Source: a virus. From it: a stretch of 26,349 nucleotides of DNA. Location: IMG/VR virus record IMGVR_UViG_3300045970_000474, positions 1 to 26,349 of that record. The stretch is one strand, 5' to 3'. The translations under genes and the position numbers were made by a program. Under the pieces are notes generated by a model that saw only the letters and a list, made by a program, of their open reading frames with translations, was not told the origin of the DNA and ran no database searches. Of this stretch, positions 3,354 to 26,349 are shown in pieces. Each line of letters opens with the position of its first letter. Position 1 is the first letter of the stretch.

Positions 3354-3601
3354 AGCTCCGAGTAGATTTTTTCAAAGCTACCACTGGAAAGTGGTACACG
3401 ACTGAGGACTTCGAACTAGGACCAGTCATGGACCCGAAGAGTGCGGGTCAAGCTCGCACCGAGATGTTCAAAACGTTCCTTACGCTGCATTTGCTTCACG
3501 ATGCTGAAGGTAAGGTGCGTATGCGGTACTCCGGCATGACTGCGGTGTGCTTGGATTGGGGCGGCTACCCCACCCTGACCACAGTTCCAGGACCTGCATG
3601 A
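3350..3601 (+). CDS. Hypothetical 83-residue protein
   Basis: The start chosen is ATG 3350, which overlaps the previous stop by 4 nt and follows a purine-rich AAGGGG; an in-frame GTG at 3323 lies inside the previous gene. The product looks like a single small alpha/beta domain (MKLRVDFFKATTGKWYTTEDFEL, then helices around TEMFKTFLTLHLLHD, then VRMRYSGM). There are no catalytic motifs. Its first 11 bases, ATGAAGCTCCG, are identical to those of the HNH gene that overlaps its end. Confidence 0.65.
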   Translation: MKLRVDFFKATTGKWYTTEDFELGPVMDPKSAGQARTEMFKTFLTLHLLHDAEGKVRMRYSGMTAVCLDWGGYPTLTTVPGPA

Positions 3602-4305: not shown

Positions 4306-4841
4306 TGCTGATATTTTTTACGTCGGATTCCCACTTCGATCACGGGAACATCATCAGCTACTGCGGTCGTCCTTTCACTTTTGGCGACGGAAGTCCAGAT
4401 GTCGGGTGTATGAACGCCGAAATTATCCGGAGGTATAACGACAGAGTTGGTACCGCAGATATCTGTTACCACTTGGGGGATTTTGCGTTTGCCCCCATAG
4501 CCCGAATTAGCGAACTACGAAGACAGCTTAATGGCAGAATAGTACTGTTGTGCGGTAACCACGATCGTGTGGGTAAATCCTTGTTGAGATCCGTATTCGA
4601 CGAGGTACATGGCTCTAGCTTGGTAACTGAGTTCGGTGGTAAGAAATTCCTGCTTGGGCACTATCCAGTGCCTGATGGAAGAGAATTTGAGCTGCTAGAT
4701 CGCCAAGGCTGTGACTTTAAGCTGTGCGGTCACGTGCACGAGGCTTGGTCTCGCAAAGGGCGTAACATCAACGTAGGAGTGGATGTTAGGGGCTTTAGGC
4801 CTATCTCCTCCGAAGAAGTCCTGGATATTGTGGCCAGCTAG
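4305..4841 (+). CDS. Calcineurin-like metallophosphoesterase
   Basis: The 178-residue protein begins at ATG 4305, sharing one base with the previous stop (TAATG), with AGGGGA 7 nt upstream; an upstream in-frame start lies inside the HNH gene. The full two-metal motif set is present: SDSHFDH (D8, H10, H13), GD (D59), GNHD (85-87), GHYP (H119) and GHVH (H143, H145), then INVGVD near the end. It should be an active phosphoesterase of the small phage/bacterial subfamily. The substrate is unknown; a nucleic acid or nucleotide end is possible given the nearby ligase. Confidence 0.88.
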   Translation: MLIFFTSDSHFDHGNIISYCGRPFTFGDGSPDVGCMNAEIIRRYNDRVGTADICYHLGDFAFAPIARISELRRQLNGRIVLLCGNHDRVGKSLLRSVFDEVHGSSLVTEFGGKKFLLGHYPVPDGREFELLDRQGCDFKLCGHVHEAWSRKGRNINVGVDVRGFRPISSEEVLDIVAS

Positions 4842-4845
4842 TTCG

Positions 4846-4907
4846 CTGGTACTAAATCAGTAACCAGTTGAATTAATTGTGGGTTTTACTCTTCCATTTA
4901 TGGAAGA
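4846..4907. other. Two short hairpins in the gap after the phosphoesterase
   Basis: The 146-nt gap at 4842-4987 holds two inverted repeats. The first pairs CTGGTACT (4846-4853) with AGTAACCAG (4859-4867), with one bulged base. The second pairs TCTTCCAT (4890-4897) with ATGGAAGA (4900-4907). Neither has the GC-rich stem plus T-run of a good intrinsic terminator, although a GGGTTTT stretch lies between them (4881-4887). They may be weak terminators or RNA processing sites. Confidence 0.3.
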
Positions 4908-4929
4908 AGCCTAGACCCTCATTGTTCCA

Positions 4930-4959
4930 TTGCTGTCTTCCACTTTGTAGTGGTAGGTT
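4930..4959 (+). promoter_or_regulatory. Candidate promoter and leader of the giant gene
   Basis: TTGCTG (4930-4935) and TAGGTT (4954-4959) are 18 nt apart, the same spacing and the same -10-like hexamer as upstream of the gene at 415. Both are followed by CCATTTCA (4970-4977 here, 392-399 there) just before the ribosome binding site. The consensus match is weak, so this rests on the resemblance between the two leaders. Confidence 0.28.
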
Positions 4960-4987
4960 CGCCCAGCTTCCATTTCAGGGGTGACCT

Positions 4988-7900: not shown

Positions 7901-9592
7901 GTCAAGGCGGAGGCGGGAAAGAAAACAAAGAAGAAGTATTCTGCGGAGCAGATTGCTAGTGAGTACTCTATTTCGGTTAAGCCCTACATCCCGCTCACAG
8001 GTCCCGACCAAGGCAAGGAGGACCCCACTAAGGTTACCCTTAAGGCCGGGTTGGGCTCCGAGGGTGTAACTAAGCTGGAGAAGTTCATAAAAGAGCTAGG
8101 CTTAAAGCCCTTCTTGCCTGAGTACAACAAGAGTGTAGCTAACCCTTCCGGGGTTATCCCAGGTAAGACCTACAACATCGCCTTTTTCGACAAAAAGGAC
8201 TGGGATAGTGCTCATGTTGAGAAGACAGAGGAGCTAGGTAGCACTACAGGAAATACTGCGGCCAAACCGGAATATTTCCCCGAAGTGAGCACATCCCCGC
8301 AAGCTCACAGCAACCTTCATGAGCTAGATGGGATTCATCATTCGACTATTCCGGCACTAGGAAAACGGCTCACTCTTGATGGTGGGTTTGTCGAGGGGCA
8401 GTGGGCCAAGGCTAAAAAATTCAAGGATAAGCAAGGACAGACTTACTACCTGTTCCAGTTCAAGCTCAGGCAACAAACGTGGGAGTCTATCCACGGAGGG
8501 GTTGCTGGAAACTGGGCGTTTACTCACGCTAATTGGGACCCCAGTGAGCAGGTGTTTGTTGAGGGGGCAGGGCACTCGGACCAGTGCCCTACTAAAAAGT
8601 GGACCCACGAGGATTCAGACCTGCATCTAGCTACCGGGTCAGACAAGTGGTCCTATAAGGGCTCTGTGTACGCTCGAATTCGCCCAAAAAAGGGGCAGAC
8701 CCCTGCGCAGGCCCTCAGAGAGATGCTGGAAACCGTAAAGCCTGGATTGGCCGACAAGGTGCTTACGCCGCCGACCCCTGAGGAGCGCGAAGTGGTAAAG
8801 TTATCTCGCGTGCTTTGGAGTGTAGCTCCACAGGAGAGCGATAAGCTTACGAACAGCCAGCGCACGATTTTCGAACTGAAGAAGCGACTCAAGGTACACG
8901 GGTATGACGAGCAGAAGCTGTCAGCACTGCAAGAAGTAGAGGCTTTTCCCGGCTATGCTACGTGGGTTGCACCCAATAGACATAAAGCTTTGGCTAACGG
9001 AAAGCTTCGATACCTCTTCAACGGAATCTCTTCTACCGAAGCAGCATTAAGCATCATGCGCTACGGCCTGTTGGGTATTCACGAGCGCAATATGATGGGT
9101 ATTCATGCGTTCGGTGGCTCATACCCTCAAGATGTTGCTAGTGGTTCCGGAGACGGTATTCTGACCAGAATCGTCACGGACTCTGGACTCGAACACGTTT
9201 TTAATGACCACAACTTTCATGGCTCATACCAGGCTTTAATCGCACCAACTGAAGTAGACCGGTTGGATACTTATATGTACAACAAGGACACGTATGGGCA
9301 GTGCCGAGATGATAATTCGGATTGGCAGAATAGGTCGCCTATCGAGACCATGGTGCAGCAGCAGCAGAAGAAATACAGTGTCGGTGCTGAGATGTCTTTT
9401 CGTCGAGGAATCGGAAAAGACAAAATCCTTAGGATTGTGTGTGGAGAAGAGTCCAATAGAAAGTCGCTAATAAAGCAGGCGAAACAAGCCGGAATCATGC
9501 AGGTCAACGGCGTACCTATTGATGACTTTGTCGTTGTCTGTACCAACTTGAGTGCTGCTTACGATAAGTACGTTAAGCCGCTTGGCTTCTAG
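4988..9592 (+). CDS. Giant multidomain protein with kinase-like and ADP-ribosyltransferase-like domains
   Basis: The 1534-residue product starts at ATG 4988 after AGGGGTG. Visible parts: a domain at about 12-90 repeated at 235-318 (V/LGT-V/I-K/R-F/YH, then W-K/R-Y); Pro/Glu-rich linkers with a run of 12 Pro (132-143); winged-helix-like segments at about 447-538 and 562-641; and a kinase-like domain at about 691-958. That domain has a possible ATP-binding K735, a catalytic-loop-like QHDSFGAN (821-828) and a metal-binding-like VDKEQGF (840-846), as in PI-kinase/HipA-like folds. The C-terminus (about 1338-1534) has YLFNGISS, IMRYGL and a late E1468 in AEMSFRRG, resembling ADP-ribosyltransferases. 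It has no signal peptide. Lying between metabolic and head genes, it may be a virion-packaged effector like T4 Alt; that role is inferred. Confidence 0.7.
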   Translation: MFQWIGATNSPVIDLDKLFEAYIPVGTVKFHKGQKGKDGQAMVKVSDAPGIGKAAWKYWMHIEKAKAKGIQDGDIAHVTKGMKPLYPGEIDPDTGKPAPDLIHPKAPAAATKPPLPAAPAAAPIPAAAAPKPPPPPPPPPPPPEEPKPEPVKAQEPVKAPEPVAATAPEPEPVAAEPEPKPEPVKAKEPVPPPSKQLKAEPEPEPEPVAAAPQAAAPDKQPPVVGPAPISDIEPLKKKVPLGTIRYHSLKSGEPAKQVWIRASDDPATPKGGWRYLMTVSAATKLGLHHDDVLSFSLSHEGKVELHKDDKGAIKKISAAGDLPKDVEAPKEPPKDEAPPEKPTEVPPEKAAETAAAVPVEMDPKHKQMIDYLKQLPGFDKNPEPYLTTGPEKKPSLLAKAMAAKYGGDWFDKWELYHSLHHDASAPPEADKQDAKPEPGEQKPEPELTPFDALPASVKDKLTAMGAVPNSLLGLTVRALFGNPNLNTLFGNPNLNTKVVAKLIGQEVGTTQVAIDHLTDAGKVIKGKDGTYSLSSDWTTTSPVAKAAATTPKAATTPPKTVEMPAAVPEDLKLLLKKHDIHPESDAGFIIRTLHATAVVSAKELKAALPTVSLTSALPWLEKHGFIEKNAAGDYALSPVWDGAAAVSTPPEATKPSLVEPEPEPDEPELPKTKKKSKALAAPSGPAAGKEMMFSPEDIPEASELTYVTSGNEKGLGGAGEKHIYKDKNGQEWIFKIAMTKGGQAEKPFAAHAQEGFANIARKVKNVQIPVKIVHIKGKMGTIQPLIPNSGDLKAAPSPSSLSPQEREDVASEHMLDWLMSQHDSFGANLVRTKTGRIIGVDKEQGFRYFGEDKLSTEYQPNTAVHGEKPPYYNQFWKEWADKKFDFDPSTLKKYADSIADIDDDEFVENFKPYAESFWEDKPKKQAEFLNEVRKRKKSFRSDFEGFLTELYKKRTEQPEGAFTFDSGWVPGVKAEAGKKTKKKYSAEQIASEYSISVKPYIPLTGPDQGKEDPTKVTLKAGLGSEGVTKLEKFIKELGLKPFLPEYNKSVANPSGVIPGKTYNIAFFDKKDWDSAHVEKTEELGSTTGNTAAKPEYFPEVSTSPQAHSNLHELDGIHHSTIPALGKRLTLDGGFVEGQWAKAKKFKDKQGQTYYLFQFKLRQQTWESIHGGVAGNWAFTHANWDPSEQVFVEGAGHSDQCPTKKWTHEDSDLHLATGSDKWSYKGSVYARIRPKKGQTPAQALREMLETVKPGLADKVLTPPTPEEREVVKLSRVLWSVAPQESDKLTNSQRTIFELKKRLKVHGYDEQKLSALQEVEAFPGYATWVAPNRHKALANGKLRYLFNGISSTEAALSIMRYGLLGIHERNMMGIHAFGGSYPQDVASGSGDGILTRIVTDSGLEHVFNDHNFHGSYQALIAPTEVDRLDTYMYNKDTYGQCRDDNSDWQNRSPIETMVQQQQKKYSVGAEMSFRRGIGKDKILRIVCGEESNRKSLIKQAKQAGIMQVNGVPIDDFVVVCTNLSAAYDKYVKPLGF
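5381..5416 (+). repeat. (CCT)12 microsatellite encoding 12 prolines
   Basis: Twelve perfect CCT codons run in the reading frame of the giant gene and open a Pro/Glu-rich linker that continues as degenerate Glu-Pro-Val repeats to about 5640. A gain or loss of units would keep the frame and only change linker length. Confidence 0.97.
6421..6474 (+). repeat. Perfect 27-bp tandem duplication
   Basis: Two identical 27-bp units (6421-6447 and 6448-6474) encode LFGNPNLNT twice. The unit length keeps the frame, and identity at every base suggests a recent duplication. It sits in the first winged-helix-like segment of the giant protein, probably lengthening a loop. Confidence 0.97.
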
Positions 9593-9612
9593 CTCTGGCA
9601 ATCGAGAACTTT

Positions 9613-10056
9613 ATGCCTCTAGACTTTGTTAGCCTCTATGTGCTGTCCGATGTTAACCAGAACTTCATCAAGGTGCAGCAAATCGCCATGGCGCCTAGGG
9701 TGGTAAAGGTTAAGGACCCGAGCACCGGGAAACCGCAGGATGAGTGGCAGTTTTTGGTCCCCAGCGAGGTAAATATGGGGCACACCATCCTAGGGGAAAT
9801 AACTTCGGATGCGGATGGAGTCGTTGAGATTGCCGACAAAGGCCGCGATGGAGACGACGGAAAACCTGTTTTGTGGAAATTTGAGCCTCTAACCCTTGAG
9901 GCGTGGAACGCCATGGGGGAGCGCGGGGACATTGATGGGTGGGAGGAGTTGACTAAAGACTTCCACACTGATGAAGAGCTTTTGCGGTTCTACAAGCACG
10001 AGTGGTTGCTACCTAGACTAGAGTGGTGGAAGCAACACCCCGAGGACTCGAAGTAG
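9613..10056 (+). CDS. Hypothetical protein upstream of the terminase genes
   Basis: The product is 147 residues from ATG 9613, or 122 from an internal ATG at 9688. Neither start has a strong ribosome binding site; an AAGGTG lies 12 nt before the second. The middle is rich in beta-type residues and acidic turns (IADKGRDGDDGKPVLWKFEP). The C-terminus is helical and aromatic (LLRFYKHEWLLPRLEWWKQ). No motif points to a known family. It lies 20 nt after the giant gene and 38 nt before the candidate small terminase, in the same direction, so it probably belongs to the packaging operon. Confidence 0.6.
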   Translation: MPLDFVSLYVLSDVNQNFIKVQQIAMAPRVVKVKDPSTGKPQDEWQFLVPSEVNMGHTILGEITSDADGVVEIADKGRDGDDGKPVLWKFEPLTLEAWNAMGERGDIDGWEELTKDFHTDEELLRFYKHEWLLPRLEWWKQHPEDSK

Positions 10057-10094: not shown

Positions 10095-10823
10095 ATGGAT
10101 CAAGAGAATAGGCCCCCGATACCGATACGCCCTATCAGCAGGGATACCGGTTGTACAAAGTTACGGATGCTGAAGTGCTTTGATGAAGTGCATCAGCAAC
10201 TCTGCGAAGGGCAGCCACTTATGACAGTGGCGAAGTTCATACAGGAGGATAGGGGTGAGTATCTAGAGGTGGAGCTAGCGACGTTGGTATCCACGCTGCG
10301 CTACTACCGTTCTACCATCCCTCCTGGAGAGTTAGCAGAGCAGCGGCTTCCTGCGGTGTTTAACGCCGCAGCCAAAAAGCTGCGTAAGGGTGTCGACGAG
10401 GTGAAGGAGCTGGAGTGGCTGTCGTTATTTCAGAAGCGTCGCCTTCGGATTGATGGAGAGACCGAGAAGAAGATAAATAAGCTTCTTCCTACGATGACCC
10501 AGGAAGTACGGGCCCACGTCGAGGTACTTAGAACCCTTGCGAGCGTCAAGATGGACCTTGGCGTGAACAAGCGGCATCTGGGTTCTCTAGAGGTAGACGC
10601 CACTCTTGTTGCTGACGTAGTAGGCCGGTACGGTACCGCTGGGGTGGGCAAGGTGCTTCAAAGCTCAGAATCACGTCAGAAAGTGATGGGTGTCGCTGAG
10701 CGGTTTATTGCGCTGGCGGCCAGGGAAGTTAGCGGGATAGAGGATGTAGAGGATGCGGAAGTAACAGAGCCCGAGACTACCCCGGAGCCGCAGCCGCCGC
10801 CCAAGCCGGTGCCAGGTGATTAG
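10095..10823 (+). CDS. Candidate small terminase subunit (by position)
   Basis: The 242-residue product starts at ATG 10095, preceded by AAGGACGGAG; an in-frame upstream GTG at 10023 would overlap the previous gene and has no such site. It is almost wholly helical. An N-terminal segment (about 25-75: LMTVAKFIQEDRG, then LATLVSTLRYY) could be a helix-turn-helix. Long helices follow (80-210), and a disordered acidic and Pro-rich tail ends the chain (about 212-242). It overlaps the start of terL by 8 nt. In T4-type phages a helical small terminase gene precedes the large one, so position and fold type fit, but no diagnostic motif is visible. Confidence 0.45.
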   Translation: MDQENRPPIPIRPISRDTGCTKLRMLKCFDEVHQQLCEGQPLMTVAKFIQEDRGEYLEVELATLVSTLRYYRSTIPPGELAEQRLPAVFNAAAKKLRKGVDEVKELEWLSLFQKRRLRIDGETEKKINKLLPTMTQEVRAHVEVLRTLASVKMDLGVNKRHLGSLEVDATLVADVVGRYGTAGVGKVLQSSESRQKVMGVAERFIALAAREVSGIEDVEDAEVTEPETTPEPQPPPKPVPGD

Positions 10824-13782
10824 CCACAAGGCGGGGCGTACTCGAAGTAAGCGCACCAAAGCCGAGCTGGAGGCGATGCTTCGACGCGAGATGGAGCATC
10901 TCAGTCCGGAGGAGCGCGAAGCCGTCCAGATTATTATTAGCGAGGTGACGCAGCCTCCGTCAGATGGCGCCTCCTTGCTGGAAGTGTTTGGTAAGGCTGA
11001 GTTTGAGCGAATTCCAGTAGATATGGACACATTTGTTAGGGACCCATACTACCTTGGCGCAACTTGCGACAATATTTATCCCACGCTTTTAGGGGACCTT
11101 AAGGAGCTATTTTCCGGTGGGTACCACGAAGCGGTTTTTACGGGATCAATCGGATGGGGAAAAACACATATCGCCACCATAGGGGTGTGTCGAATCTTGT
11201 ATGAGCTGTCTTGTATGAAAGATCCGCATAAGAGCTTCGGACTGGCTCGCGGGTCGAACATGTCCCTCGTCTGTACCTCCGTAAGCGAAACCTTAGCGGT
11301 TAAGGTGGTGTTCGAGTCTATTGCAACCAAGCTAACCTCTAGCCCTTACTTCGAAGAGCACTTTCCCTTTAAGGACACGAAGAAGGACTTGGTGTTTCCG
11401 AACGGCATCTGGGTGGCTGCGCGCTCATCTACCGATACTTCCGCTTTAGGTCTTAACGCCTTCGGCGCGCTGCTGGACGAATCTAACTTTTTGCCCAGAA
11501 CCATTAAGGATATTCAAAGCGGTGCGCTGGACCGAGCCGAGACTCTTTACAACACCATCCAGCGCCGTATGAAGTCCCGCTTCGAACGTCACGGCAAGCT
11601 CCCCGGCATGATTTTCATCGTGTCGTCCAAGAACACCATAAACGACTTCACCGCAAAGCGTATTCGCGAGTCAAAAGACGACCCAACCGTGTTTGTTAGG
11701 GACTATCCTCTTTGGGGTCCAAAACCAAAGGACCAATACTCCTCCAAAAAGTTCTGGGTGTTGTGCGGGAACGAGACTGTGCCGTCCAAAATAATCACGG
11801 ACGAAGAGCACGTTACGCTTTCCTCTACTCTGCCGGAAAACGTAGTTTTTGTAGATGTTCCAGAAGACTTTCGCAGGGATTTTGAACGGGATATCGAGGG
11901 AAGCATCCGAGATTTAGCGGGGATGGCCACCGTATCTATCAATCCGTTCATTCAAAGGCGCGAGAAGATTCTAGAGGCGGTGGACCCTGCTCGCGTTCAC
12001 CCGTTTTCGACTCTGGTTTATGACCCCTCTAAAGGAGGTCAGTTCCTTTGGCCGCTAATGGTTCAGGAGGTGTCGGAACGCGGGTATTCCGATATTAGCA
12101 CTAGGCAGCTTCGCCCTATTCTGAACCCCAAGGCGCTTAGACATATCCATGTGGACCCCTCCCTAAGGAATGACTCCACTGGGTTCTGCATGTCGCATAT
12201 TGGCGGCTACAAGAACGTAGCTCGTCGAGGGGAGGACGGGAAAGAGTACGTAGAGCGAGCGCCGATGTACGTGATTGACGTCATGCTACGGATTGTTCCT
12301 CCTACAGGCGGCGAGATTGTGCTGTCGGAGCTTAGGCACCTCATTTATGACTTAGGGGCTCACGGCTACATGATTGCGGGGGTAACGCTGGATAGCTGGC
12401 AGAGCGCCGACACGATTCAGCAGCTGAATCAGCGAGGGTTTAAGTCTGAAATTCTGTCGGTAGACACTTCTCCGGATCCTTACGACAACCTCAAGACTGC
12501 CCTGTATGAGGGGCGCGTGAGCTACTACAGTTACCCGCCTGTGGAGGAGGAGCTTCAGCAACTGGAGCGAAAGAGCAACGGACGCAAGACTAAGATCGAT
12601 CACCCACCTAAGGGTTGTTTTACCGGAAGCACTCGGGTGGCGCTCCTCGATGGGACGCTACCAACGTTCGAAGAGCTGGCTGTAAGGTTTAAGCCGAACG
12701 AGCAATTTGCAGTTTATTCTATAGGGCCAGAAGGGGTGTGTGCGGGTTGGGGTCGAAACTCGCGAGTCACTAAGCAGGTTACCGAGCTTGTAGAGGTAAC
12801 GCTAGACAACTACCAGGTCATTGAGTGCACTCCTGACCACCGCTTCATGCTACTGAGTGGGGATTGGGTTCGGGCAGAAAATCTTACACCAGAGATGTCA
12901 CTGATGCCTTTATACCGGTCTCGACTATCGACAGGTGGGTGGGCGGGGTATGAGCGCTTGTGGTGCCCCAGACGGAAACTCCGAGTACTCACACACCAAC
13001 TGGTAGGTCAACAGCTTTTCGGGAGCACATCCGGACAGCATGTTCATCACCGAAACGAAACGAAACACGATAACGCTCCAGGCAACCTCGAATTGAAATC
13101 AAGAGGTCAGCATCTGCGAGATCACACGCTATTGCGCCACGCCGATGCGACTTACGTTTCGAAGCTTAGGACTGGGCACCTGCGCTATCGCGAAAATGGA
13201 GGTAACGAGAAGAGCCGAGAGAACATTCTTAGGCTTTTTGAAGAAGGGAAGTTAAAACGAGGCAGAGCTGGTTGCTTGGTAGAGGGGTGCGCTAGCCTAT
13301 CGAGTGCTGGAGGTATGTGTGGTAAGCACTACCAGCACATACGAAGGGAACGACAAAAAGTAGAGCGTACGTCCTTACAAAGCAATCACCGTGCGATTTC
13401 GGTGCGTCGCATTTCCCGTATCGCTGATGTGTGGGACCTTACCGTTGAGGGCCTAGAGAATTTCGCACTAGCTTCTGGGGTGTTTGTCCATAACTCCAAA
13501 GACGTAGCCGACGCATTAGCGGCTAGCTGCTACGCGCTTTCGAACACGGGGATATCACAACCGCTTCCTATCATGCGTGGGCTGTCGTACAGTGGCGACG
13601 CTTGGATGGAAGAACAGCGTCAATCAGCATTGGCGGGAGCCCCTAGGGCGTCTCAAAACACTGACGTTTTACCTGCATTTTTAACCGGTGGTGGCGGGAA
13701 CGGGGGATGGAACAGCGGGAATGGCGGAGATGACGGTGGCGGTAGCTGGGGAAATGGCGGCGGCGGATGGTATCCAGGGTAG
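10816..13782 (+). CDS. Terminase large subunit, interrupted by an intein
   Basis: The DNA-packaging motor ATPase/nuclease is encoded as a 988-residue precursor; removing the intein (residues 601-893) gives a 695-residue enzyme. The GTG start overlaps the previous gene by 8 nt. The ATPase shows a Walker A GSIGWGKT (110-117) and Walker B LLDE (D221, E222). The RNase H-like nuclease shows HVDPS (D447), TLDSW (D526) and, just after the intein, SKDVADAL (D896/D899). These are the hallmarks of T4 gp17-type large terminases. The mature protein ends in an unusual Gly-rich tail with interspersed Trp and Asn (about 959-988). The nuclease site is complete only after splicing, so the intein must be active for DNA cutting. 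Confidence 0.95.
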   Translation: MISHKAGRTRSKRTKAELEAMLRREMEHLSPEEREAVQIIISEVTQPPSDGASLLEVFGKAEFERIPVDMDTFVRDPYYLGATCDNIYPTLLGDLKELFSGGYHEAVFTGSIGWGKTHIATIGVCRILYELSCMKDPHKSFGLARGSNMSLVCTSVSETLAVKVVFESIATKLTSSPYFEEHFPFKDTKKDLVFPNGIWVAARSSTDTSALGLNAFGALLDESNFLPRTIKDIQSGALDRAETLYNTIQRRMKSRFERHGKLPGMIFIVSSKNTINDFTAKRIRESKDDPTVFVRDYPLWGPKPKDQYSSKKFWVLCGNETVPSKIITDEEHVTLSSTLPENVVFVDVPEDFRRDFERDIEGSIRDLAGMATVSINPFIQRREKILEAVDPARVHPFSTLVYDPSKGGQFLWPLMVQEVSERGYSDISTRQLRPILNPKALRHIHVDPSLRNDSTGFCMSHIGGYKNVARRGEDGKEYVERAPMYVIDVMLRIVPPTGGEIVLSELRHLIYDLGAHGYMIAGVTLDSWQSADTIQQLNQRGFKSEILSVDTSPDPYDNLKTALYEGRVSYYSYPPVEEELQQLERKSNGRKTKIDHPPKGCFTGSTRVALLDGTLPTFEELAVRFKPNEQFAVYSIGPEGVCAGWGRNSRVTKQVTELVEVTLDNYQVIECTPDHRFMLLSGDWVRAENLTPEMSLMPLYRSRLSTGGWAGYERLWCPRRKLRVLTHQLVGQQLFGSTSGQHVHHRNETKHDNAPGNLELKSRGQHLRDHTLLRHADATYVSKLRTGHLRYRENGGNEKSRENILRLFEEGKLKRGRAGCLVEGCASLSSAGGMCGKHYQHIRRERQKVERTSLQSNHRAISVRRISRIADVWDLTVEGLENFALASGVFVHNSKDVADALAASCYALSNTGISQPLPIMRGLSYSGDAWMEEQRQSALAGAPRASQNTDVLPAFLTGGGGNGGWNSGNGGDDGGGSWGNGGGGWYPG
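12616..13494 (+). mobile_element. TerL intein with HNH homing endonuclease
   Basis: This in-frame 293-residue insertion begins with Cys (CFTGSTRVALL) and ends GVFVHN, followed by Ser as the +1 residue. Hint splicing blocks are visible: the N-terminal block, block B around ECTPDHRF, and C-terminal blocks VWDLTVEGLENFAL and VFVHN. Between them lies an HNH nuclease with HVHH (742-745), a DNAPGNLEL-type segment and H-x-x-x-H, then a Cys cluster (CLVEGC, CGKHY). It splits the nuclease motif between KG and SKDVADA. All catalytic residues for splicing and cutting appear present. Confidence 0.95.
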
Positions 13783-14161: not shown

Positions 14162-17100
14162 GTGGGATTCGTAGCCAATACAGCCAACCGAGTTAGAGAG
14201 TTCTTCCGGCAGGACAAGGAACAACTCGCGCTTCGTATGGCGAAGGGTACAACTTCTGCTGGGTATCCGTCGGCCGGATACGACATGCTTCAGGCGTATG
14301 GGTATGACGTTCTTTCGGACTACCTTCGGTTAGAACACGACCTACTGTCTCGGTTTGTGGACTACGAGGAGATGGATGATTATCCAGAAATTAGCACCGC
14401 TATCGACATTTACAGCGATGACGCCAGCCAGCCTGAGACCCAGTTAAACCGAACGGTTTGGGTGGAATCTCAAGACGAAAGTGTACAGAAGGTTCTGGAC
14501 GACCTTCTTCACAAGACTCTTCGCATCGATGAAGAGATTTGGGAAATTGCACGAACACTCTGCAAGTACGGGAACGACTGCGAAGAGTTACTGGTCACAG
14601 AGCGCGGAGTAGAGGGGCTGAACTTCCTGCCTCCACCCACGGTACGCCGCATTGAGGGCCCTCGCGGGGAGTTATTCGGGTTTGTACAGGACTTCAAAGG
14701 TAAGTTCGGGTACTGCCTTGCCCGAGGTTCCAGAATTTGGAAGGTTGGGGGGCTGGTAGAGGTTCAGAACTTCAAGGACGGAGATGTAGTTGCTGCGCAT
14801 AAGAATGGGCAGCAGGTTCCTCTTCGAGTTAAAAAGCTGCACCACAACGGAACCAAGCGCGTCTTTAAGCTTAGGACGCGCCACCGTGAGCTGTTTCTGA
14901 CAGAGAACCACCCAGTACTGGTTCAGAGGCTAGATGGCACACAGGTATGGACGCAGGTCAAAGATTTGAAGTTGGTTCGGTTTAACGGCAAGAAACAGAA
15001 TATCGATTATTCCAAATCCGATAAGCTGGTTATCAGTACTCGGATGCCAGTAGGGGAGCTTCCCGAGTGGGCGTCTCTTCAGAGCTTCGACCCGTTCGCT
15101 CAAACTCAGGGCAATAAAGGTAGTCCTGTTGCGCTAACGCTCCCTCCGCGCCCATCTCCTGAGTTTTGTAACTTGTTCGGATTTTTGCTCGGGGATGGTT
15201 GGTTGGAGGAGGACCGCAGGGTTTCCTACGCTCGCGGCGTATACCCCGAGCTGAACGATAAGTACGACTCCCTGCTGCGGTCGTTCGGAGTAGAAGCCGT
15301 AGTAAGTGAGGACGGAACGCAGACACGTGTTGCTTCTGTACACCTTGCCCGGTTACTACAGTCGCTAGGGTGGATTAACGGGGCCTCTAAAAAGCGGGTT
15401 CCGGGGTGGGTGTTCGGGCTTCCAGAGTCTCACAGAGAGGCGCTGCTTCGAGGGTTCTTGGATGCAGATGGTTGGGTGCAGCACCAGCCTACCCGTCAGT
15501 ACGACTCCCACAGCTTTGAGATTGCCAATTACGACCTTGCCCGCGACCTGAAGAACCTAATCGACGGATTAGGCTATCGTTGCGGGAATGTCGGCACGCG
15601 TACTCGTAAGGTTGGGGGCATAATCAACGGTAAGACCGTGAAGACGCAGCAAGCGTGTTTCAACTTAACTTTCACCGAACACAAGTTCGATCAACAGTTT
15701 GTTGCAGAGAATCTACTCAACCTGTCCTACTACGAGGATACTGAGGTTTACGATCTCGAAGTCGAAGACGCCGCTCATAACTTTGTTACCGATGGTGTAG
15801 TCGTTCACAATTCCCCCCAGGAGTTCCAGCAAATTCTCGCCTCACGCGCAGCTATGCGCCTAGGCGGGACCGAGAAGCAGGGAATGGGCGGGCTAGACCG
15901 CATCGCCGCCCTAGAGGATTGGGAGGTAGTTCACTTCAGGCTTCGTGGAAAGCATCGTAGGTCGCTCTACGGGTACTCGGTACTTGAGTCTTCCAGGTGG
16001 ATTTGGAAGCGGCTAATGATGCTGGAAGATGCGGCTCTCATTTACCGGCTTCAGCGCGCCCCTGAGCGCTATGCCTTCTACGTGGATGTTGGTGACTTGC
16101 CTCCAGCGGAAGCGTTGGCTTTCGTAAACCGGGTTCGTCAGGGACATAAGAAGACCAAGTACTTTAATCCGACCTGCTTGACGGCGGATACGTGCATCAC
16201 TTGCCTAGATGGGGTAGAGCGCAGCATTGGGGAGCTGGCCAGGGATTACGCCGATAAGACCTTCGATGTCTTTTCGTACGACCTTGAGAATGGCAGGGTC
16301 GTTCCAGGCAAGGCTTCGGGGCCTCGTAAGACAGGTGAGCAGGTTCCCGTTTGGCGCGTGGTTCTTGATAACGGCGCAGTCGTACGTAGTACTGGTAACC
16401 ACCCGTTCCTCATGCGGGATGGCACGTATCGAGCGGCTAACACCTTGGTAGCTGGCGATTCGCTCATGCCTCTCTATATGAGCCGAGGCTACGAGTGCTC
16501 TGACTACTGGATGTATGAAGACCCTGCGTCTGGACAGCGCAAGCACGTTCATAAGATGGTTGCCGAAGCGGTCTATGGGGCCGAAGCCCTTCACGGGCTT
16601 CATGTTCACCACAAGGACGAGAATAAGGCCAACAATACTCCGGCCAATCTAGAAGCCCTGACGGCCTCAGAGCACATGCGACGTCACCCCGAAAACGCAA
16701 TGAAGGGTCGCGCAGCTTACGTGGCTCGCATTCAAACGGATGCGGCATTCGCCAAGGCGATTGTTAGCCGGATGGATGAGTATCGTGACCCTGTTACAGC
16801 GGGTAGGCGCTCCCAAGAGCTTCGGAGTTCGGAGGCGCGAGGTGGTCAGGCCCGGCTAGTGGAACTTCTAACCTCTGAAGTAGTTAGAGACCCTCTAGTG
16901 GTAGTCGAAGAAATGCTGGAGCGCCTGAACGCTAACGAGGAGTTTAAGAGTGTTTATGCGGCGCTGCCTACGACTCAGAAGTCAGAGATGTCCGTAGGGT
17001 GCTTCCATGCTTTTATTCAGCGTCAGGGCTTTGAGGGCTTCAAGGACTTTAAGACAAAGAAGTGCGGCGAGGCTAAGTGGGTAAACCGAACGTACGGCGC

Positions 17101-18232
17101 AGTGCCCACTGCCGACAAAAAGGTTGTGAATCACAAAGTTATTAGCGTGAGCTTTGATGGGTACGAGGATGTCTACAACCTCGATGTCGAGACGTATCAT
17201 AACTTCGCGCTTACTGCGGGCGTGTTCACGCACAACACGGGCAAGCTAGACCTCAAGTTCAATCCTATCTCGCAAGACGAGGACTTCTTTGTACCCAGCC
17301 GCAAGGGTCAGGATGGGACTCGCATCGAGGTTCTAGGCTCACCGTCCTGGCAGCACATGGACGACATTGAGTACTTCAGGGACAAGCTGTTTGCAGCGTT
17401 GAAGGTACCCAAAGCCTATATGGGGCAGCAGGAAGGCGTAGCCCGCGCCGTTTTGTCCTCCGAGGATGTTCGTTTTGCTCGTACGGTTCTTCGGGTACAG
17501 CGAGAGATTCGAAACGGGCTAGCCAAGGTTTGTCGCATTCACTTGGCTGCGCTGAACATCGACCCCTACGCGGTGGATTACGACATCAAGATGACGGTGC
17601 CGTCGTCCATCTTCGAGCTTGCTCAGCTTGAAGTTCGGAACGCCAGAGCGGACTTGGCGGGCCGTATGGGCCAGTTCGTTTCTTTGCACTGGACTCTAGC
17701 CAATGTGTTTGGTTTTAGTGACCACGACATCGAAGAAATTATCAGTCAGCAAGAAGAGGACGCATTGCGCGTCACGATGAACCAAACGAAAGCTGAAATT
17801 GCCGCCCAAAAATATCAACAAGAGCATGCACCGGCACCTCCCCCCGACCAGGCCCCAGGTCAAGCAGCCCCACCTCCAGACCAAGAACAGCCTCAGGCTG
17901 ACCAGGAGGGGGACCTTCCTCCTGCCGATGGGGTGCAGCTAGCTCCAGACACTGTTGCTGCGGATGCTCCTCCGCCTCCTGCCGCTAAGGCCACAAACGC
18001 CCAAAAGCTTTTGGCATATCGGAGCAAGAAGTATCCGTTAAATCAGTCGCGCCGGGTGCGCCGTACTGGCATAATTACCGAGCAGGAGTTATTTGCCGGG
18101 TCCAACAAGGAAAACGAAAAACGAGCGATGGATAAGCTGGAGACCTTGCTTAAGAACGACAAACAGCTTGCGGTTAGGCTTCTTGAGGTGCGGTCTCTTT
18201 TGGACGATGTGCGGTCCATTCGCGGAAAGTAG
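14162..18232 (+). CDS. T4 gp20-like portal protein with two inteins
   Basis: The 1356-residue precursor gives a 636-residue portal after removal of inteins at residues 185-550 and 672-1025. The portal forms the dodecameric ring through which DNA enters the head. The GTG start follows GAGAGAGGG. Family features include MDDYPEISTAIDIYSDDA near the N-terminus and, after intein 2, TGKLDLKFNPISQDEDFFVPSR, then DIEYFRDKLFAALKVPKAYM, matching the core of the gp20 family. The C-terminus adds a Pro/Gln-rich disordered stretch (about 1220-1275) and a charged helix. T4 gp20 is about 520 residues, so this one is longer mainly at the C-terminus. Confidence 0.93.
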   Translation: MGFVANTANRVREFFRQDKEQLALRMAKGTTSAGYPSAGYDMLQAYGYDVLSDYLRLEHDLLSRFVDYEEMDDYPEISTAIDIYSDDASQPETQLNRTVWVESQDESVQKVLDDLLHKTLRIDEEIWEIARTLCKYGNDCEELLVTERGVEGLNFLPPPTVRRIEGPRGELFGFVQDFKGKFGYCLARGSRIWKVGGLVEVQNFKDGDVVAAHKNGQQVPLRVKKLHHNGTKRVFKLRTRHRELFLTENHPVLVQRLDGTQVWTQVKDLKLVRFNGKKQNIDYSKSDKLVISTRMPVGELPEWASLQSFDPFAQTQGNKGSPVALTLPPRPSPEFCNLFGFLLGDGWLEEDRRVSYARGVYPELNDKYDSLLRSFGVEAVVSEDGTQTRVASVHLARLLQSLGWINGASKKRVPGWVFGLPESHREALLRGFLDADGWVQHQPTRQYDSHSFEIANYDLARDLKNLIDGLGYRCGNVGTRTRKVGGIINGKTVKTQQACFNLTFTEHKFDQQFVAENLLNLSYYEDTEVYDLEVEDAAHNFVTDGVVVHNSPQEFQQILASRAAMRLGGTEKQGMGGLDRIAALEDWEVVHFRLRGKHRRSLYGYSVLESSRWIWKRLMMLEDAALIYRLQRAPERYAFYVDVGDLPPAEALAFVNRVRQGHKKTKYFNPTCLTADTCITCLDGVERSIGELARDYADKTFDVFSYDLENGRVVPGKASGPRKTGEQVPVWRVVLDNGAVVRSTGNHPFLMRDGTYRAANTLVAGDSLMPLYMSRGYECSDYWMYEDPASGQRKHVHKMVAEAVYGAEALHGLHVHHKDENKANNTPANLEALTASEHMRRHPENAMKGRAAYVARIQTDAAFAKAIVSRMDEYRDPVTAGRRSQELRSSEARGGQARLVELLTSEVVRDPLVVVEEMLERLNANEEFKSVYAALPTTQKSEMSVGCFHAFIQRQGFEGFKDFKTKKCGEAKWVNRTYGAVPTADKKVVNHKVISVSFDGYEDVYNLDVETYHNFALTAGVFTHNTGKLDLKFNPISQDEDFFVPSRKGQDGTRIEVLGSPSWQHMDDIEYFRDKLFAALKVPKAYMGQQEGVARAVLSSEDVRFARTVLRVQREIRNGLAKVCRIHLAALNIDPYAVDYDIKMTVPSSIFELAQLEVRNARADLAGRMGQFVSLHWTLANVFGFSDHDIEEIISQQEEDALRVTMNQTKAEIAAQKYQQEHAPAPPPDQAPGQAAPPPDQEQPQADQEGDLPPADGVQLAPDTVAADAPPPPAAKATNAQKLLAYRSKKYPLNQSRRVRRTGIITEQELFAGSNKENEKRAMDKLETLLKNDKQLAVRLLEVRSLLDDVRSIRGK
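14714..15811 (+). mobile_element. Portal intein 1 with LAGLIDADG homing endonuclease
   Basis: The 366-residue intein begins with Cys (CLARGSRIWK) and ends GVVVHN, followed by Ser. Splicing blocks include ENHPVLV (block B) and VYDLEVEDAAHNFV near the end. The nuclease has two LAGLIDADG helices, LFGFLLGDGW (acidic residue D345) and LLRGFLDADGW (D436), both keeping the metal-binding Asp, so it should be active. It is inserted between FGY and SPQEF in the N-terminal half of the portal. Confidence 0.95.
16175..17236 (+). mobile_element. Portal intein 2 with HNH homing endonuclease
   Basis: The 354-residue intein begins with Cys (CLTADTCITC) and ends GVFTHN, followed by Thr. Block B reads GNHPFLM, and the C-terminal blocks read VYNLDVETYHNFAL. 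The HNH part has HVHH (814-817), ENKANNTPANLEAL and H-x-x-x-H. It resembles the TerL intein, sharing SLMPLY-x-SR ahead of the nuclease and the same HNH layout. It interrupts the conserved NPT/TGK motif of gp20-type portals. Confidence 0.95.
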
Positions 18233-21996: not shown

Positions 21997-23496
21997 ATGA
22001 GCGTCGAAGCTCGGAAGATGATGGCAGAGGAAGGCAAGGGAACCATCGAGGACAAGACCCTCGTTGGCGCGCTTGTTAGGAAGTGGGCCCCGATGCTGGA
22101 AGGAATTCCGGATCGGACCGTTAGCGACAAGTACACCATGGGCGTCACTGCGATGCTCATGGAGAACCAGTCGCAGTACCTCCAGGGGTTGACTGAAGAG
22201 ACGAAGACCATCAACGTGGGCTCGTTTACCAAGTTCATCTTCCCTGTGCTTCGCCGGGTGTTTCCGAACCTGATTGCGAACGAGATTGTCTCGGTTCAGC
22301 CGATGACTGCGCCTGTCGGGGCCGTGTTCTTCCTCGACTACGTGTACGGGACCAACAAGGGCGGGACGAACGCAGGAAACGTCTTCCCTCGTGACTTCGA
22401 CAAGGATTACTCGTCGGAGTACATCAACGGCGAGCAGGCCGCTACCGGTGACGGCGCCAAGTACAGCGGCGCGGGCGGCGCGTTGTCAGTTAGCTGCGGC
22501 TTTAACCCCGTGCGTCCGCTGGACGCTTCGCGCGGCTTCTCGGTTATTATCCGAGAGTTGAACAAGACCTCGGGCTCGGTTGTTCAGACCGCTACCGATA
22601 ACGGCGCGGGTGGGTTTACTGGTGCGACTACTGCTGGCGCCATCAACTACTCGAATGGTGCCATCACTGGGTTCCTGTTCACCAATCCTCCGGCGAACGG
22701 CAACCCCGTCAAGGTGTACTACTTCTACGACGGTGAAATGTCGTCGAAGGTCCCCCAGATTCAGCTGGACGTCAAGAAGGCACCGGTCGAGGCTACGCCT
22801 CGCCGCCTGAAGGCCCTCTGGTCGTCGGAAGCTGCTGAAGACCTTCGCGCGTTCCACGGGCTCGACGCTGAGACTGAGATTGTCTCGGCAGTGGCTCAGG
22901 AAATCGCGATGGAAATCGACCGTGAAATCATCCAGAACCTGTTCGCAGCGTCTACCGGAACCTCGGCGACCTTCGACCGCGTTCCTCCGGCCGGTATCGC
23001 GGAGCTGGACCACCTCCGTTCGATGATTACCCAAATCAGCACTGTGTCGAACCTCATCCACAAGAAGACCCTGCGTGCGCCTGCGAACTTCATCGTTACC
23101 TCTCCTGAGGTTTCGGCCCTGTTCGCTCAGCTCACCACGCACGGCGACTTCCGCTCGGCTTACCAGAGCGGCGGCGAAGTGTACGGTGGCGGCATGGATA
23201 TGCCCCGCCCGATGAGCCAGCACGGTCAGTTCGGCATCTACAAGGTCGGAACCCTCCAGAACAAGTGGATGGTGTACGAGGATCCGTTCTTCGCACGCGA
23301 CCAGATGCTGATTGGCTTGAAGGGCAGCAGCTACCTAGACGCTGGGTACGTCTGGGCGCCTTACATCCCGCTTCAGGTCACGCCGACCTTCTTAGACCCG
23401 AACGACTTCAGTTTCAGGAAGGGTCTCCGCACTCGCTACGCAACTAAGTTGCTGCGCAGCGAATACTACGGACAGGTCCGCATTAACAACCTCTAA
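21997..23496 (+). CDS. Major capsid protein, T4 gp23-like
   Basis: The 499-residue product starts at ATG 21997, 6 nt after GGAGG. The core signature PNLIANEIVSVQPMTAPVG at about residues 88-106 matches the gp23 family, which has an HK97-like fold. Upstream of it, L65-T66-E67 fits the (L/I)xE consensus of T4 prohead proteases, close to the gp23 cleavage point (after Glu 65), so a propeptide of about 67 residues is likely removed. Codon choice differs from the neighbours, with many C-ending codons (TTC, AAC, GAC, ATC) as in highly expressed genes. A strong terminator follows directly, so this is the end of the head operon. Confidence 0.95.
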   Translation: MSVEARKMMAEEGKGTIEDKTLVGALVRKWAPMLEGIPDRTVSDKYTMGVTAMLMENQSQYLQGLTEETKTINVGSFTKFIFPVLRRVFPNLIANEIVSVQPMTAPVGAVFFLDYVYGTNKGGTNAGNVFPRDFDKDYSSEYINGEQAATGDGAKYSGAGGALSVSCGFNPVRPLDASRGFSVIIRELNKTSGSVVQTATDNGAGGFTGATTAGAINYSNGAITGFLFTNPPANGNPVKVYYFYDGEMSSKVPQIQLDVKKAPVEATPRRLKALWSSEAAEDLRAFHGLDAETEIVSAVAQEIAMEIDREIIQNLFAASTGTSATFDRVPPAGIAELDHLRSMITQISTVSNLIHKKTLRAPANFIVTSPEVSALFAQLTTHGDFRSAYQSGGEVYGGGMDMPRPMSQHGQFGIYKVGTLQNKWMVYEDPFFARDQMLIGLKGSSYLDAGYVWAPYIPLQVTPTFLDPNDFSFRKGLRTRYATKLLRSEYYGQVRINNL

Positions 23497-23521: not shown

Positions 23522-23560
23522 AAAAGCCCTCTTGGAGAAATCCAAGAGGGCTTTTCGTTT
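23522..23560 (+). terminator. Strong rho-independent terminator after the capsid gene
   Basis: AAAAGCCCTCTTGGA (23522-23536) pairs perfectly with TCCAAGAGGGCTTTT (23541-23555) around a GAAA loop, giving a 15-bp stem followed by CGTTT. It begins 26 nt after the capsid stop. The flanking A and T runs would let it act on both strands. It isolates the downstream fusion gene from head-operon transcription. Confidence 0.96.
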
Positions 23561-23662: not shown

Positions 23663-25909
23663 ATGGCCGACTCTGATTGTTTTATCTACGGGCTTGTAGA
23701 CCCCCAGTACCGAGACGACTTGGTTAGAGGTCTCCGGTACATCGGACAGAGCAGCGTTGGAATGAAACGCCCTAAATCCCATATGGAGGATTGGGCGCAA
23801 GAGCACGATACCAACAAGCACAAGGTTTACTGGGTTCGTAAGCTTAAAGGGTTGGGGTTAGAGCCAGAAATTGTAGTGTTGGCGCGTGTAGCTCTTCCCT
23901 CTGAGCTAGATGCTCTTGAGATTAAGCTGATTGCGCACCACAAATCTCTTGGGTGTGACCTAATTAATCTCACCGAGGGAGGTGGCGGTAGGAGGGGATT
24001 TGAGCACTCGGAAGAGACACGGAAGCTGATTTCGGATTCCAAGGTAGGTGTTTCTAAAAGCAGTACGGCGGGGTTTATCGATGTTACTGAAGTACTGTGT
24101 GACGCTTGGAGTCCTGTTAAAGCTTGGTGGTTGGGGGCTGCGTTTGGTCGCTGTACAGTGGATAACTCCATAGGGAGTCGTTGGGTTACCTTCTCTTCTG
24201 GTTCTTTGGAGTTAGTAGAGAAGTGGTCTAGCGTGCTCAGAATCGATGCCGCTCGCATACAGAAGCGAGCGGACTCTGAGTGTTGGACCCTGGAGTTCGG
24301 GGATGTGCGCCTCACTGAGTGGCTAGCACTGACCTATGGGTTAGACGCTAAGTACAATGGGACGTTGTTGTGGCCAAGGGACCTTCCGGAAGAGCTTAGT
24401 CACGAGTTTATTCGCGGACTTTGGGATGCTAAAGGCACTATCAGGCGCGTCACACGCCCGGGTAGGTCCATCACCGCACCTAGAGCCTCTTTGTTATTTA
24501 ATAGCGAGCCTTTTATTCTCAGTCTTGTGGCGCATACACAAGGTTGGCTATTAAAGACCGAGGGTACTCCTGCAAGCGGGGCTTACGCAGGCCGGGTTTA
24601 CTATGGAGCTGAGCGCTCTGGAGCGAAGGTACCCCCATTTCTTCAATGGGTATACGCCAATGCTCCAGAGCCTTTGCGACTTAACTCCAACTACGAGCTG
24701 GCACTTAAACTATGCGAGGAGTTTGAGCAGTTGCTGCGCTCTTGCGGCAAGTGCGGCAAACCCGCTGTGCTGGGAGCTGAGTTGTGTCGCGGGTGTTCGA
24801 AGCGAAAATGGGAGAATATTAGCTGTGCATGTGGGGCTCCTAAAATAGTAGCTAAGGGTTTGTGCCGCGTTTGCTACCAGCGTACTTGGGTCAAGTCTGG
24901 TAGGGCCAAACCTTGGCACAGTGAAGACCCTGCTATTGCGCGGTTAAACGCTTACGCGGTGCCTGAGTGGCAGAAACTGGCTCCAGAGCTACAAAAAGCA
25001 GAAACCTCCAAACTAGCGTCCGTATACAAAGGTAGGGGGTTCCCTTGGTACCTAACTGAGCGCCCAGAAGAAGACCCATTGGGCAAGGTCAGGAAGGGCT
25101 CCATTAAGGAGACCGACTCGATAATCGGCGCCGTCAGTTGGGTCGGACAGAGGACCTGCCTACGGTTTCACCCTCACAGGTTAGAGGCAAAACATCGCAG
25201 CAACATGGTTTCTGTTGCGGAAGCCTTTGATGACCCGAAATGGGTTGAGCGCGCTATACGGCTTCAATTACGGCATGGTGACCCTGTTGTACCGCTCAGA
25301 GTCTATAGGGCGATGTCTGCTATTTTGAAGGGGCCTCTCAATTTCCCTCCAGTACTAGCTCGCTGGATTGTAGACAAGTTTGCGCCAGAAAATGGAGTGG
25401 TTTTAGACCCCTGTGCTGGATACGGGGGCAGGCTGCTAGGGGCAGTTTCTAGCCGCAGAAACATCACTTATGTTGGGTATGATGTGGAGCCTAAGACGGT
25501 AGAGGGGAACCAAAAACTAGCTAAGCATCTAGAGGTGTCTTCGAGAGCAGGGGTGGAACTGCTCGGTGTGGAAGCTGTGCCCGAATATCCGAAGGCGGAT
25601 CTTGTGATGACTAGCCCGCCTTACTACAACGCAGAGTACTATGGCTCTTGTGCTGAGATTACTCTTCAGAAGTACACGAGCATCCGGGAGTGGCTTGATG
25701 GGTTTTTGAGAGTTCTAATCCGTAAAAGCCTGGCTGCGGCGCCACTCTTTCTGCTGAATATCGGTGCTGTCAAAGATTGCGACCTCCCTGAAGAGGCGGT
25801 ACGGCTAGCTACGGAGGAGGGGTTTAAGCTAAAAGCTCGTTGGACTTGGCAGACTGCCACCTTTGGTAACGTGGCCTCAAAGGAACGCTTGTTGTTGTTC
25901 GAGCGCTGA
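23663..25909 (+). CDS. GIY-YIG / degenerate LAGLIDADG / Cys-cluster / DNA methyltransferase fusion
   Basis: The 748-residue chain has four modules. Residues 6-107 are a GIY-YIG nuclease of the IYGLVDP/RYIGQS type with Y9, Y26, R36, H40, E86 and N102 in place, followed by a NUMOD3-like HSEETRKLISDSKVG (115-129). Residues about 150-290 resemble a LAGLIDADG domain (WWLGAAFG at 155-162, FIRGLWDAKG at 249-258), but both catalytic Asp positions are Arg/Lys. Two Cys clusters follow (C361, C364, C375, C378; C388, C390, C401, C404). Residues about 490-748 are a DNA methyltransferase with DPCAGYGG (582-589) and TSPPYY (650-655), typical of amino-methylating (N4-C or N6-A) enzymes. It stands alone behind the capsid terminator, as mobile cargo would. 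The biological role is inferred. Confidence 0.85.
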   Translation: MADSDCFIYGLVDPQYRDDLVRGLRYIGQSSVGMKRPKSHMEDWAQEHDTNKHKVYWVRKLKGLGLEPEIVVLARVALPSELDALEIKLIAHHKSLGCDLINLTEGGGGRRGFEHSEETRKLISDSKVGVSKSSTAGFIDVTEVLCDAWSPVKAWWLGAAFGRCTVDNSIGSRWVTFSSGSLELVEKWSSVLRIDAARIQKRADSECWTLEFGDVRLTEWLALTYGLDAKYNGTLLWPRDLPEELSHEFIRGLWDAKGTIRRVTRPGRSITAPRASLLFNSEPFILSLVAHTQGWLLKTEGTPASGAYAGRVYYGAERSGAKVPPFLQWVYANAPEPLRLNSNYELALKLCEEFEQLLRSCGKCGKPAVLGAELCRGCSKRKWENISCACGAPKIVAKGLCRVCYQRTWVKSGRAKPWHSEDPAIARLNAYAVPEWQKLAPELQKAETSKLASVYKGRGFPWYLTERPEEDPLGKVRKGSIKETDSIIGAVSWVGQRTCLRFHPHRLEAKHRSNMVSVAEAFDDPKWVERAIRLQLRHGDPVVPLRVYRAMSAILKGPLNFPPVLARWIVDKFAPENGVVLDPCAGYGGRLLGAVSSRRNITYVGYDVEPKTVEGNQKLAKHLEVSSRAGVELLGVEAVPEYPKADLVMTSPPYYNAEYYGSCAEITLQKYTSIREWLDGFLRVLIRKSLAAAPLFLLNIGAVKDCDLPEEAVRLATEEGFKLKARWTWQTATFGNVASKERLLLFER

Positions 25910-25972: not shown

Positions 25973-26349
25973 ATGGCAACGGCATCGGACATTCTGAGAG
26001 AGCTAGAGGACATTGGGGCGGTAGGCGGAAAAGTAGTGGCGCCCGCACCTCGTAAGGTTGTTGTACCTCCCGCGCCTTTTATACCTACCGCTTCTGTAGA
26101 GGCTGTGGCGGCATGCGGGCTCTCTTCTCCGCCTAAGGTGAACAAGGTGCTCGTTGGTTTTGCGGACCAGCTAGAGCTTTTGGAGGGCGCCTTGAAGGGG
26201 ATGCTGTCTTGGTGCGCTCTGGCTAGGGAACAGCTTCTTCAGCAAGCTGTTGCGGTAGATGAACCTGAATATGAGGAGCAGCCGGAGCTAGATTTAGAGG
26301 GGGCTCGGGATAGCCGCGCAGCTGAAGATGAGGAAGCTGGGGAGGACGA
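25973..26349 (+). CDS. Hypothetical protein, cut by the right edge
   Basis: The ORF starts at ATG 25973 with AAAGGA 6 nt upstream and stays open to the window end (125 codons visible). The product begins MATASDILRELEDIGAVG, continues with a Pro/Val/Ala-rich stretch, then a helix around NKVLVGFADQLELLEGALKG, and becomes very acidic by residue 97 onward. There is no catalytic motif and no membrane segment. The palindrome just upstream suggests separate regulation from the methyltransferase fusion. Function unknown. Confidence 0.7.
   Translation, partial: MATASDILRELEDIGAVGGKVVAPAPRKVVVPPAPFIPTASVEAVAACGLSSPPKVNKVLVGFADQLELLEGALKGMLSWCALAREQLLQQAVAVDEPEYEEQPELDLEGARDSRAAEDEEAGED

Follow-up and report, generated by a model that had tools for sequence, protein, structure and literature searches.

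A phage gene joining a GIY-YIG nuclease, a LAGLIDADG-fold domain and a DNA amino-methyltransferase in one chain, and its relatives behind phage capsid genes

The question raised by this locus is why parts of homing endonucleases and a complete DNA methyltransferase should be encoded in a single phage gene. The gene lies at 23663..25909 (+ strand) of the window, by which we mean the whole analysed stretch of 26,349 nt from an IMG/VR record, and comprises a stop-free ORF of 748 aa with an ATG start inside an open frame of 752 codons. Upstream of it, the gene of a T4-type major capsid protein (gp23; 21997..23496, +; PF07068 Gp23, E=1.1e-73; phrog_138) is followed by an intrinsic terminator with a 15-bp stem, a 4-nt loop and a T-rich tail (23522..23555, +). 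Downstream, gene d (SDILRELEDIGAVG; 25973..26349, +), which is the conserved next gene in relatives, forms the right edge of the insertion slot. A scan of the window revealed neither Rfam families nor tRNAs. A first, sequence-only reading had described a 748-residue ORF behind a strong terminator, with nuclease and methyltransferase combined in a single protein; the uninterrupted ORF and the stem with its T's were found as described, and both enzymatic parts were matched by domain searches. Altogether, it is confirmed that a GIY-YIG nuclease, a NUMOD3-like motif, a LAGLIDADG-fold domain, CxxC pairs and a complete DNA amino-methyltransferase are joined in one chain. A viral scan with the single protein and a plasmid search gave no match, and the same holds for a PDB sequence search with its N-terminal part.

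The N-terminal GIY-YIG nuclease domain (aa 1-130; 23663..24052, +) matched the homing endonuclease family phrog_314 with E=1.9e-8 and phrog_7168 weakly in a PHROG profile search. In an alignment with two phage GIY-YIG proteins, the residues Y9, Y26/G28, R36, H40, E86 and N102 were invariant, and the domain shows a homing-type nuclease fold with an intact active site, as had been supposed when it was first described as plausibly active. Its end comprises a weak NUMOD3-like motif (aa 112-129; 23996..24049, +), which reached 14 bits for PF07460 compared to a Pfam cut-off of 20.4 bits.

The following part (aa 130-350) matched the endonuclease family phrog_4645 with E=2.1e-6. Based on an AlphaFold model with a pLDDT of about 90, the middle domain proper (aa 138-359; 24074..24739, +) is predicted to adopt the LAGLIDADG fold with its two LAGLIDADG helices. 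The best PDB fold match of the model was I-Tsp061I (2dch, E=2e-9), and further Foldseek matches were PI-SceI, I-AniI and I-OnuI. The LAGLIDADG-like domain of the sequence-only reading is therefore borne out with respect to its fold, but the catalytic residues, on which that reading made no remark, are gone: both catalytic Asp are replaced, one by R ('FGRC') and one by K ('DAKG'). In the alignment of the middle domain, each of the 24 phage relatives (24/24) has an acidic residue at the end of both motifs, 1 and 2, and the window alone differs. Two of its relatives are published free-standing proteins of Providencia phage PR1 and Brevibacillus phage Jenst, located between split DNA polymerase genes. 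Judged from the replaced residues, the LAGLIDADG domain is probably catalytically dead and serves only DNA binding. With both Asp lost, the GIY-YIG domain, which likely took over the cutting, is the only likely cutter of the protein, and two active nucleases in the chain are ruled out by the same loss. The Cys clusters noted before correspond to two CxxC pairs at aa 361-406 in a zinc-ribbon-like region (aa 360-410; 24740..24892, +) with weak matches to DZR_2 and phrog_20467; the region showed low AlphaFold model confidence and is presumed to contact DNA.

The C-terminal part of the chain (aa 420-748 including an N-terminal helical part; 24920..25909, +) was assigned to the SAM-dependent DNA amino-methyltransferases. 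It matched PF01555 above the cut-off, phrog_12517 with E=5e-16 and MTase_II of PADLOC, and its AlphaFold2 model reached a pLDDT of 93.6 and a pTM of 0.91. Both motifs that characterize an amino-methyltransferase (N4-cytosine or N6-adenine) are present, namely the SAM-binding motif I (DPCAGYGG; 25406..25429, +), for which D, G and R are invariant in 69 sequences, and the catalytic motif IV of the form (D/N/S)PP(Y/F) (TSPPYY; 25610..25627, +), for which both Pro are invariant in 69 sequences. From these two motifs a plausible active methyltransferase had been proposed, which agrees with the profile match and the model. The order of the motifs, I before IV, is permuted compared to PF01555. The same order occurs in viral cytosine-N4-type DNA methyltransferases of the same family or fold (phrog_12517; pithovirus, Bacillus phage G gp294, Staphylococcus Twort-like, Vibrio 2.058.O), whose compared phage members are stand-alone proteins of 320-390 aa, whereas the enzyme of the window is fused. 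Viral proteins named cytosine-N4 DNA methyltransferases were also the best full-length structural relatives (TMq 0.73, BFVD). The PDB matches to the core include the RNA methylases TrmN and Trm11, with TrmN leading. Since tRNA methylases are among these matches, a DNA substrate, indicated by PF01555, the viral N4-cytosine DNA methyltransferases and PADLOC, is likely, short of proven. The enzyme would act on an exocyclic amino group, probably that of cytosine (N4) and possibly that of adenine (N6).

The position of the gene was compared in 27 IMG/VR relatives of the window phage, which were retrieved by their capsid protein (67-85% identity) and which keep the capsid gene and genes d, e and f in the same order. 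The gap between capsid gene and gene d amounts to 2.48 kb in the window compared to about 90-142 bp in L123, L132, L133 and L140; the fusion gene is a discrete insertion missing from otherwise syntenic relatives. In L124, L125, L126, L135 and L139 the slot is occupied by a protein of 329-358 aa comprising an HTH and a LAGLIDADG domain with intact catalytic residues, which is homologous to the middle domain of the window (PF14528 in L124 and L125). L142 carries a GNAT and TnsA-like protein at this point, and other relatives carry unrelated ORFs. Since the slot is empty or differently filled in syntenic relatives, it represents a hotspot downstream of the capsid gene with alternative occupants, of which the fusion is one, and the homing-type placement of the sequence-only reading is upheld. 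As an alternative, that reading had suggested that a methyltransferase gene already resident at the locus was joined by the ORF of a homing nuclease. This was rejected, because none of the relatives of the window phage contains a stand-alone methyltransferase at the locus between capsid gene and gene d. In T4, the GIY-YIG gene segD is located between gene 23 (capsid) and gene 24 (PMC2988022).

A recoding of the capsid 3' codons only in those relatives that carry a homing endonuclease gene (HEG) alone (AATTTGTAG compared to AACCTCTAA/TGA) was suggestive, but L122, L124, L130 and L135 fit poorly, and the idea was set aside; the capsid 3' end of the window keeps AACCTCTAA. In L122, after position 9491, the codons of HEG carriers (AATTTG) are found at the capsid 3' end with no HEG behind, which may represent a site that lost its element. 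The occupant of L142 (2828-4262; capsid 84% identity) combines a GNAT/Mom-like acetyltransferase domain with a TnsA-like nuclease and CxxC motifs, and is another case of a DNA-modification-like enzyme joined to a nuclease. A gene resembling it (phrog_3339 homing endonuclease) precedes a fusion of Vsr and methyltransferase in LR756508.

The joining of nuclease and methyltransferase is not restricted to the window. By tblastn in phages, two ORFs of huge phages (LR745208, LR756508) were found in which other nuclease-like regions are fused to the same methyltransferase family. When viral and genome contigs were scanned on the basis of alignments, 188 methyltransferase ORFs were obtained, of which 154 remained after clustering at 95%. 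Their length distribution is bimodal, the stand-alone proteins comprising about 320-365 aa and some 35 fusions 614-1229 aa. In each of these roughly 35 distinct genes the methyltransferase is C-terminal to a nuclease region, the superfamily of which varies. HMM searches identified LAGLIDADG_2 in L010, L017, L019 and L111, HNH in L009 (phrog_374, E=4.5e-105), Vsr in L006 (with homing-endonuclease PHROGs in L013 and L021) and a TnsA-like nuclease in L113; the Vsr fusions carry MucR-type zinc fingers. For L023, L092, L187, L190, L198 and L199 a putative PD-(D/E)XK nuclease was assigned by a motif read by eye only; Pfam detected a nuclease in none of these six, its sole addition being a CGNR zinc finger for L199. 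The sequence-only reading had suggested searching for homologues of the same architecture. Such homologues exist in number, though the GIY-YIG version is so far known from the window only, as searches with GIY-YIG and window-subclade alignments found no second one. The window fusion is accordingly one member of a wider nuclease-methyltransferase class. Since the layout recurs in these distinct genes on independent contigs, including LR745208 and LR756508, an assembly chimera is ruled out.

In a quick maximum-likelihood tree of 90 methyltransferase domains the fused enzymes largely clustered, and the window paired with the HNH fusion L009 (SH-aLRT 100, 44% identity). The nuclease type among the fusions changed at least five times on this tree, of which some branches are long and the exact change counts soft. 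Motifs I and IV are intact in nearly all fusions. Some contigs contain more than one fusion: in L086, two different LAGLIDADG-methyltransferase fusions (4801-6771 and 7700-9739) lie behind one capsid gene with a 279-aa homing-type ORF between them, and in L091 two different ones (2510-4909 and 4918-6966) lie back to back with one capsid gene upstream. In L077, L247 and L258, N-terminal extensions of the same methyltransferase family resemble ParB-type domains by eye.

The location beside capsid genes is shared by most fusions. Based on the 27 fusions found without capsid bait (eight others fetched via capsid genes were left out) and a search for two capsid types, T4-type gp23 and phrog_2522, a capsid gene was located at most 2.6 kb upstream of 20 fusions, in nearly all cases within about 260 bp, compared to 3 of 106 stand-alone methyltransferases. 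The two capsid families next to fusions are unrelated, T4-type gp23 being the neighbor in the window and in L113. In L006, about 2 kb separate the fusion from a gp23-like gene upstream, and this interval contains another homing-type gene. The three Vsr fusions are preceded by a homologous 1400-aa protein, to which none of the libraries gave a name.

Around the phrog_2522 capsid gene, 80 loci were compared, which comprise empty, HEG-only and HEG-methyltransferase states. Between L012 (fusion) and L154 (empty) the homology resumes 112 nt past the capsid stop, and in L152, 37 nt from the 3' end of a fusion gene are left as a remnant; the pair and this trace of a deletion show that the slot has both gained and lost fusions. 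In L010/L014 a tract of raised identity covers the capsid 3' end and the nuclease half, with the methyltransferase half outside, which suggests local exchange. For the seven pairs of sister fusions with measurable dS, the pairwise dN/dS was 0.08-0.23 in the nuclease halves and 0.06-0.16 in the methyltransferase halves, showing that both halves are under purifying selection. Decay was observed as well: the methyltransferase of L174 is without motifs I and IV next to an intact LAGLIDADG part, motif IV of L006 reads TSIPYF, and L197/L201/L202 break at the methyltransferase start, with the methyltransferase frame lost in L201/L202. The methylase is therefore not always needed. The cases of L174 and L201/L202 would also be expected if homing genes were repeatedly read into an adjacent methyltransferase gene, leaving a dead or dying methyltransferase half in the window phage. 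However, the enzyme of the window keeps all motifs and folds with a pLDDT of 94, both halves of the sister fusions have a low dN/dS (0.06-0.23), and a stand-alone precursor is missing at the locus in relatives, so that we regard such an accidental fusion as very improbable.

Homing endonucleases are generally regarded as safe for their carrier, as insertion or recoding destroys the target, and ordinary HEGs need no methylase. This escape from self-cutting by site disruption counts against the need for a methylase as antidote, and the nuclease and the methyltransferase of the fusion may have different targets. Nonetheless, we lean, if only slightly, towards a free-standing nuclease for homing or exclusion that is equipped with a methylase for self-protection. 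In such an element the GIY-YIG domain would be the cutter, the dead LAGLIDADG domain and the zinc-ribbon-like modules would most likely hold the target DNA, and the C-terminal enzyme would methylate an exocyclic amino group in the same target. During a mixed infection the fusion protein would cut the unmarked genome of a rival, probably near the capsid gene, and the cut rival would either be lost or be repaired by copying the segment bearing the element. Methylation would spare the element's own genome, and neither insertion nor recoding would then be required to remove the target. The homing/restriction-modification hybrid of the sequence-only reading fits the recurrence with swapped nucleases and the homing-type insertion; self-protection by methylation is the part of it that we infer. 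That homing nucleases help a phage against coinfecting rivals is reported for phage PhiPA3 (PMC11620839).

The same architecture could belong to a compact type IIG-like restriction-modification enzyme, which would methylate a short, frequent site in its own genome and cut unmethylated DNA of rival phages or the host, with no homing involved and the slot merely tolerating cargo. Type IIG/IIC enzymes are defined by the combination of a nuclease and a methyltransferase in one chain (PMC3039593). The window protein has this layout with both motif sets intact, its methyltransferase half matches PADLOC type II methyltransferases and both halves are conserved. Still, we consider this explanation unlikely, since the nuclease and DNA-binding parts come from homing families that typically read long sites (LAGLIDADG, GIY-YIG with a NUMOD3-like motif, Vsr with MucR-type zinc fingers), plain LAGLIDADG HEGs occupy the same slot in relatives, and the scans revealed no target recognition domain resembling those of HsdS or type IIG enzymes. 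Curated type IIG models were unmatched, PADLOC giving only the generic MTase_II and mad2 on the methyltransferase part and HEase on the nuclease of L010, and no NCBIfam model scored above its cut-off. The known enzymes Eco57I, MmeI, AloI and BcgI, and the artificial RM.Eco29kI with its GIY-YIG nuclease, resemble the window protein in combining nuclease and DNA methyltransferase in one chain. Natural type IIG/IIC enzymes, however, contain nucleases of the PD-(D/E)XK type and a separate domain for target recognition (in part PMC3039593, PMC4833311), compared to homing-type nuclease and binding parts, a phage genome and a homing slot in the case of the window.

Another possibility would be that the methyltransferase is a cargo or host-benefit module, shielding from host restriction or serving other functions, and that the nuclease only moves the gene, each with its own site. 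Stand-alone members of the same methyltransferase family are common in phages and the enzyme is therefore useful without a nuclease; moreover, L024 and L031 carry a LAGLIDADG gene and a methyltransferase gene side by side and unfused. Mere linkage, however, would not require fusion, and the repeated fusion of one methyltransferase clade to at least five nuclease types at the same position suggests that physical coupling matters, which makes the cargo explanation doubtful in our view.

Returning to the self-protecting nuclease, we tentatively propose, with a confidence that falls a little short of even, that the fusions are selfish phage elements of a new class, namely homing endonucleases that mark their own genome. 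The methyltransferase lineage would be the fixed antidote, and nucleases of at least five unrelated superfamilies would be swapped in as the weapon against the capsid gene region of rivals. If true, the methylase within the chain would confer immunity by a second and general route, freeing the element from destroying its own target, and would link homing elements with restriction-modification systems. The recurrent combination of one methyltransferase lineage with nucleases of unrelated kinds, in most cases next to a capsid gene, offers many natural variants for testing modification-guarded nucleases between phages, and could be a source of single-chain enzymes that recognize long sites for cutting as well as for methylation.

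Among the known systems, the free-standing homing endonucleases of T4 (segA-G, mobA-E) share with the window gene the intergenic, intron-free location, the adjacent T4-type capsid gene (segD), the GIY-YIG fold and the patchy distribution among relatives. To our knowledge, the Seg and Mob proteins contain neither a methyltransferase nor a LAGLIDADG domain, whereas the window protein comprises both. The LAGLIDADG homing endonucleases of the phrog_4645 family, including the PR1 and Jenst proteins, are homologous to the middle domain and have the same fold; the window differs by the loss of both catalytic Asp and by the fusion to GIY-YIG and methyltransferase. A GIY-YIG domain and an NPPY-type methyltransferase in one chain are also known from prokaryotic Slx1-like proteins in Lactobacillales (PMC1564403), which are cellular, have the reverse order with an N-terminal methyltransferase, and belong to different GIY-YIG and methyltransferase families. 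No description of a fusion between homing endonuclease and methyltransferase was found in open-access full texts, and since subscription papers and preprints were mostly outside this search, the novelty is provisional.

The fragment of 26 kb contains at least five homing-type elements, comprising inteins, endonuclease VII/HNH-type ORFs and the fusion. Two endonuclease VII/HNH-type homing-like ORFs are located at 2288-2896 and 3547-4305, followed by a 1534-aa ORF (4988-9592) with no Pfam or PHROG match. A 988-aa ORF (10816-13782) shows an intein splicing domain and HNH (655-893). The ORF of the portal gene (Gp20; 14162-18232, 1356 aa) comprises intein splicing blocks with an HNH domain (683-1025) and a separate LAGLIDADG_3 match (426-471), and possibly represents a portal gene with two inteins.
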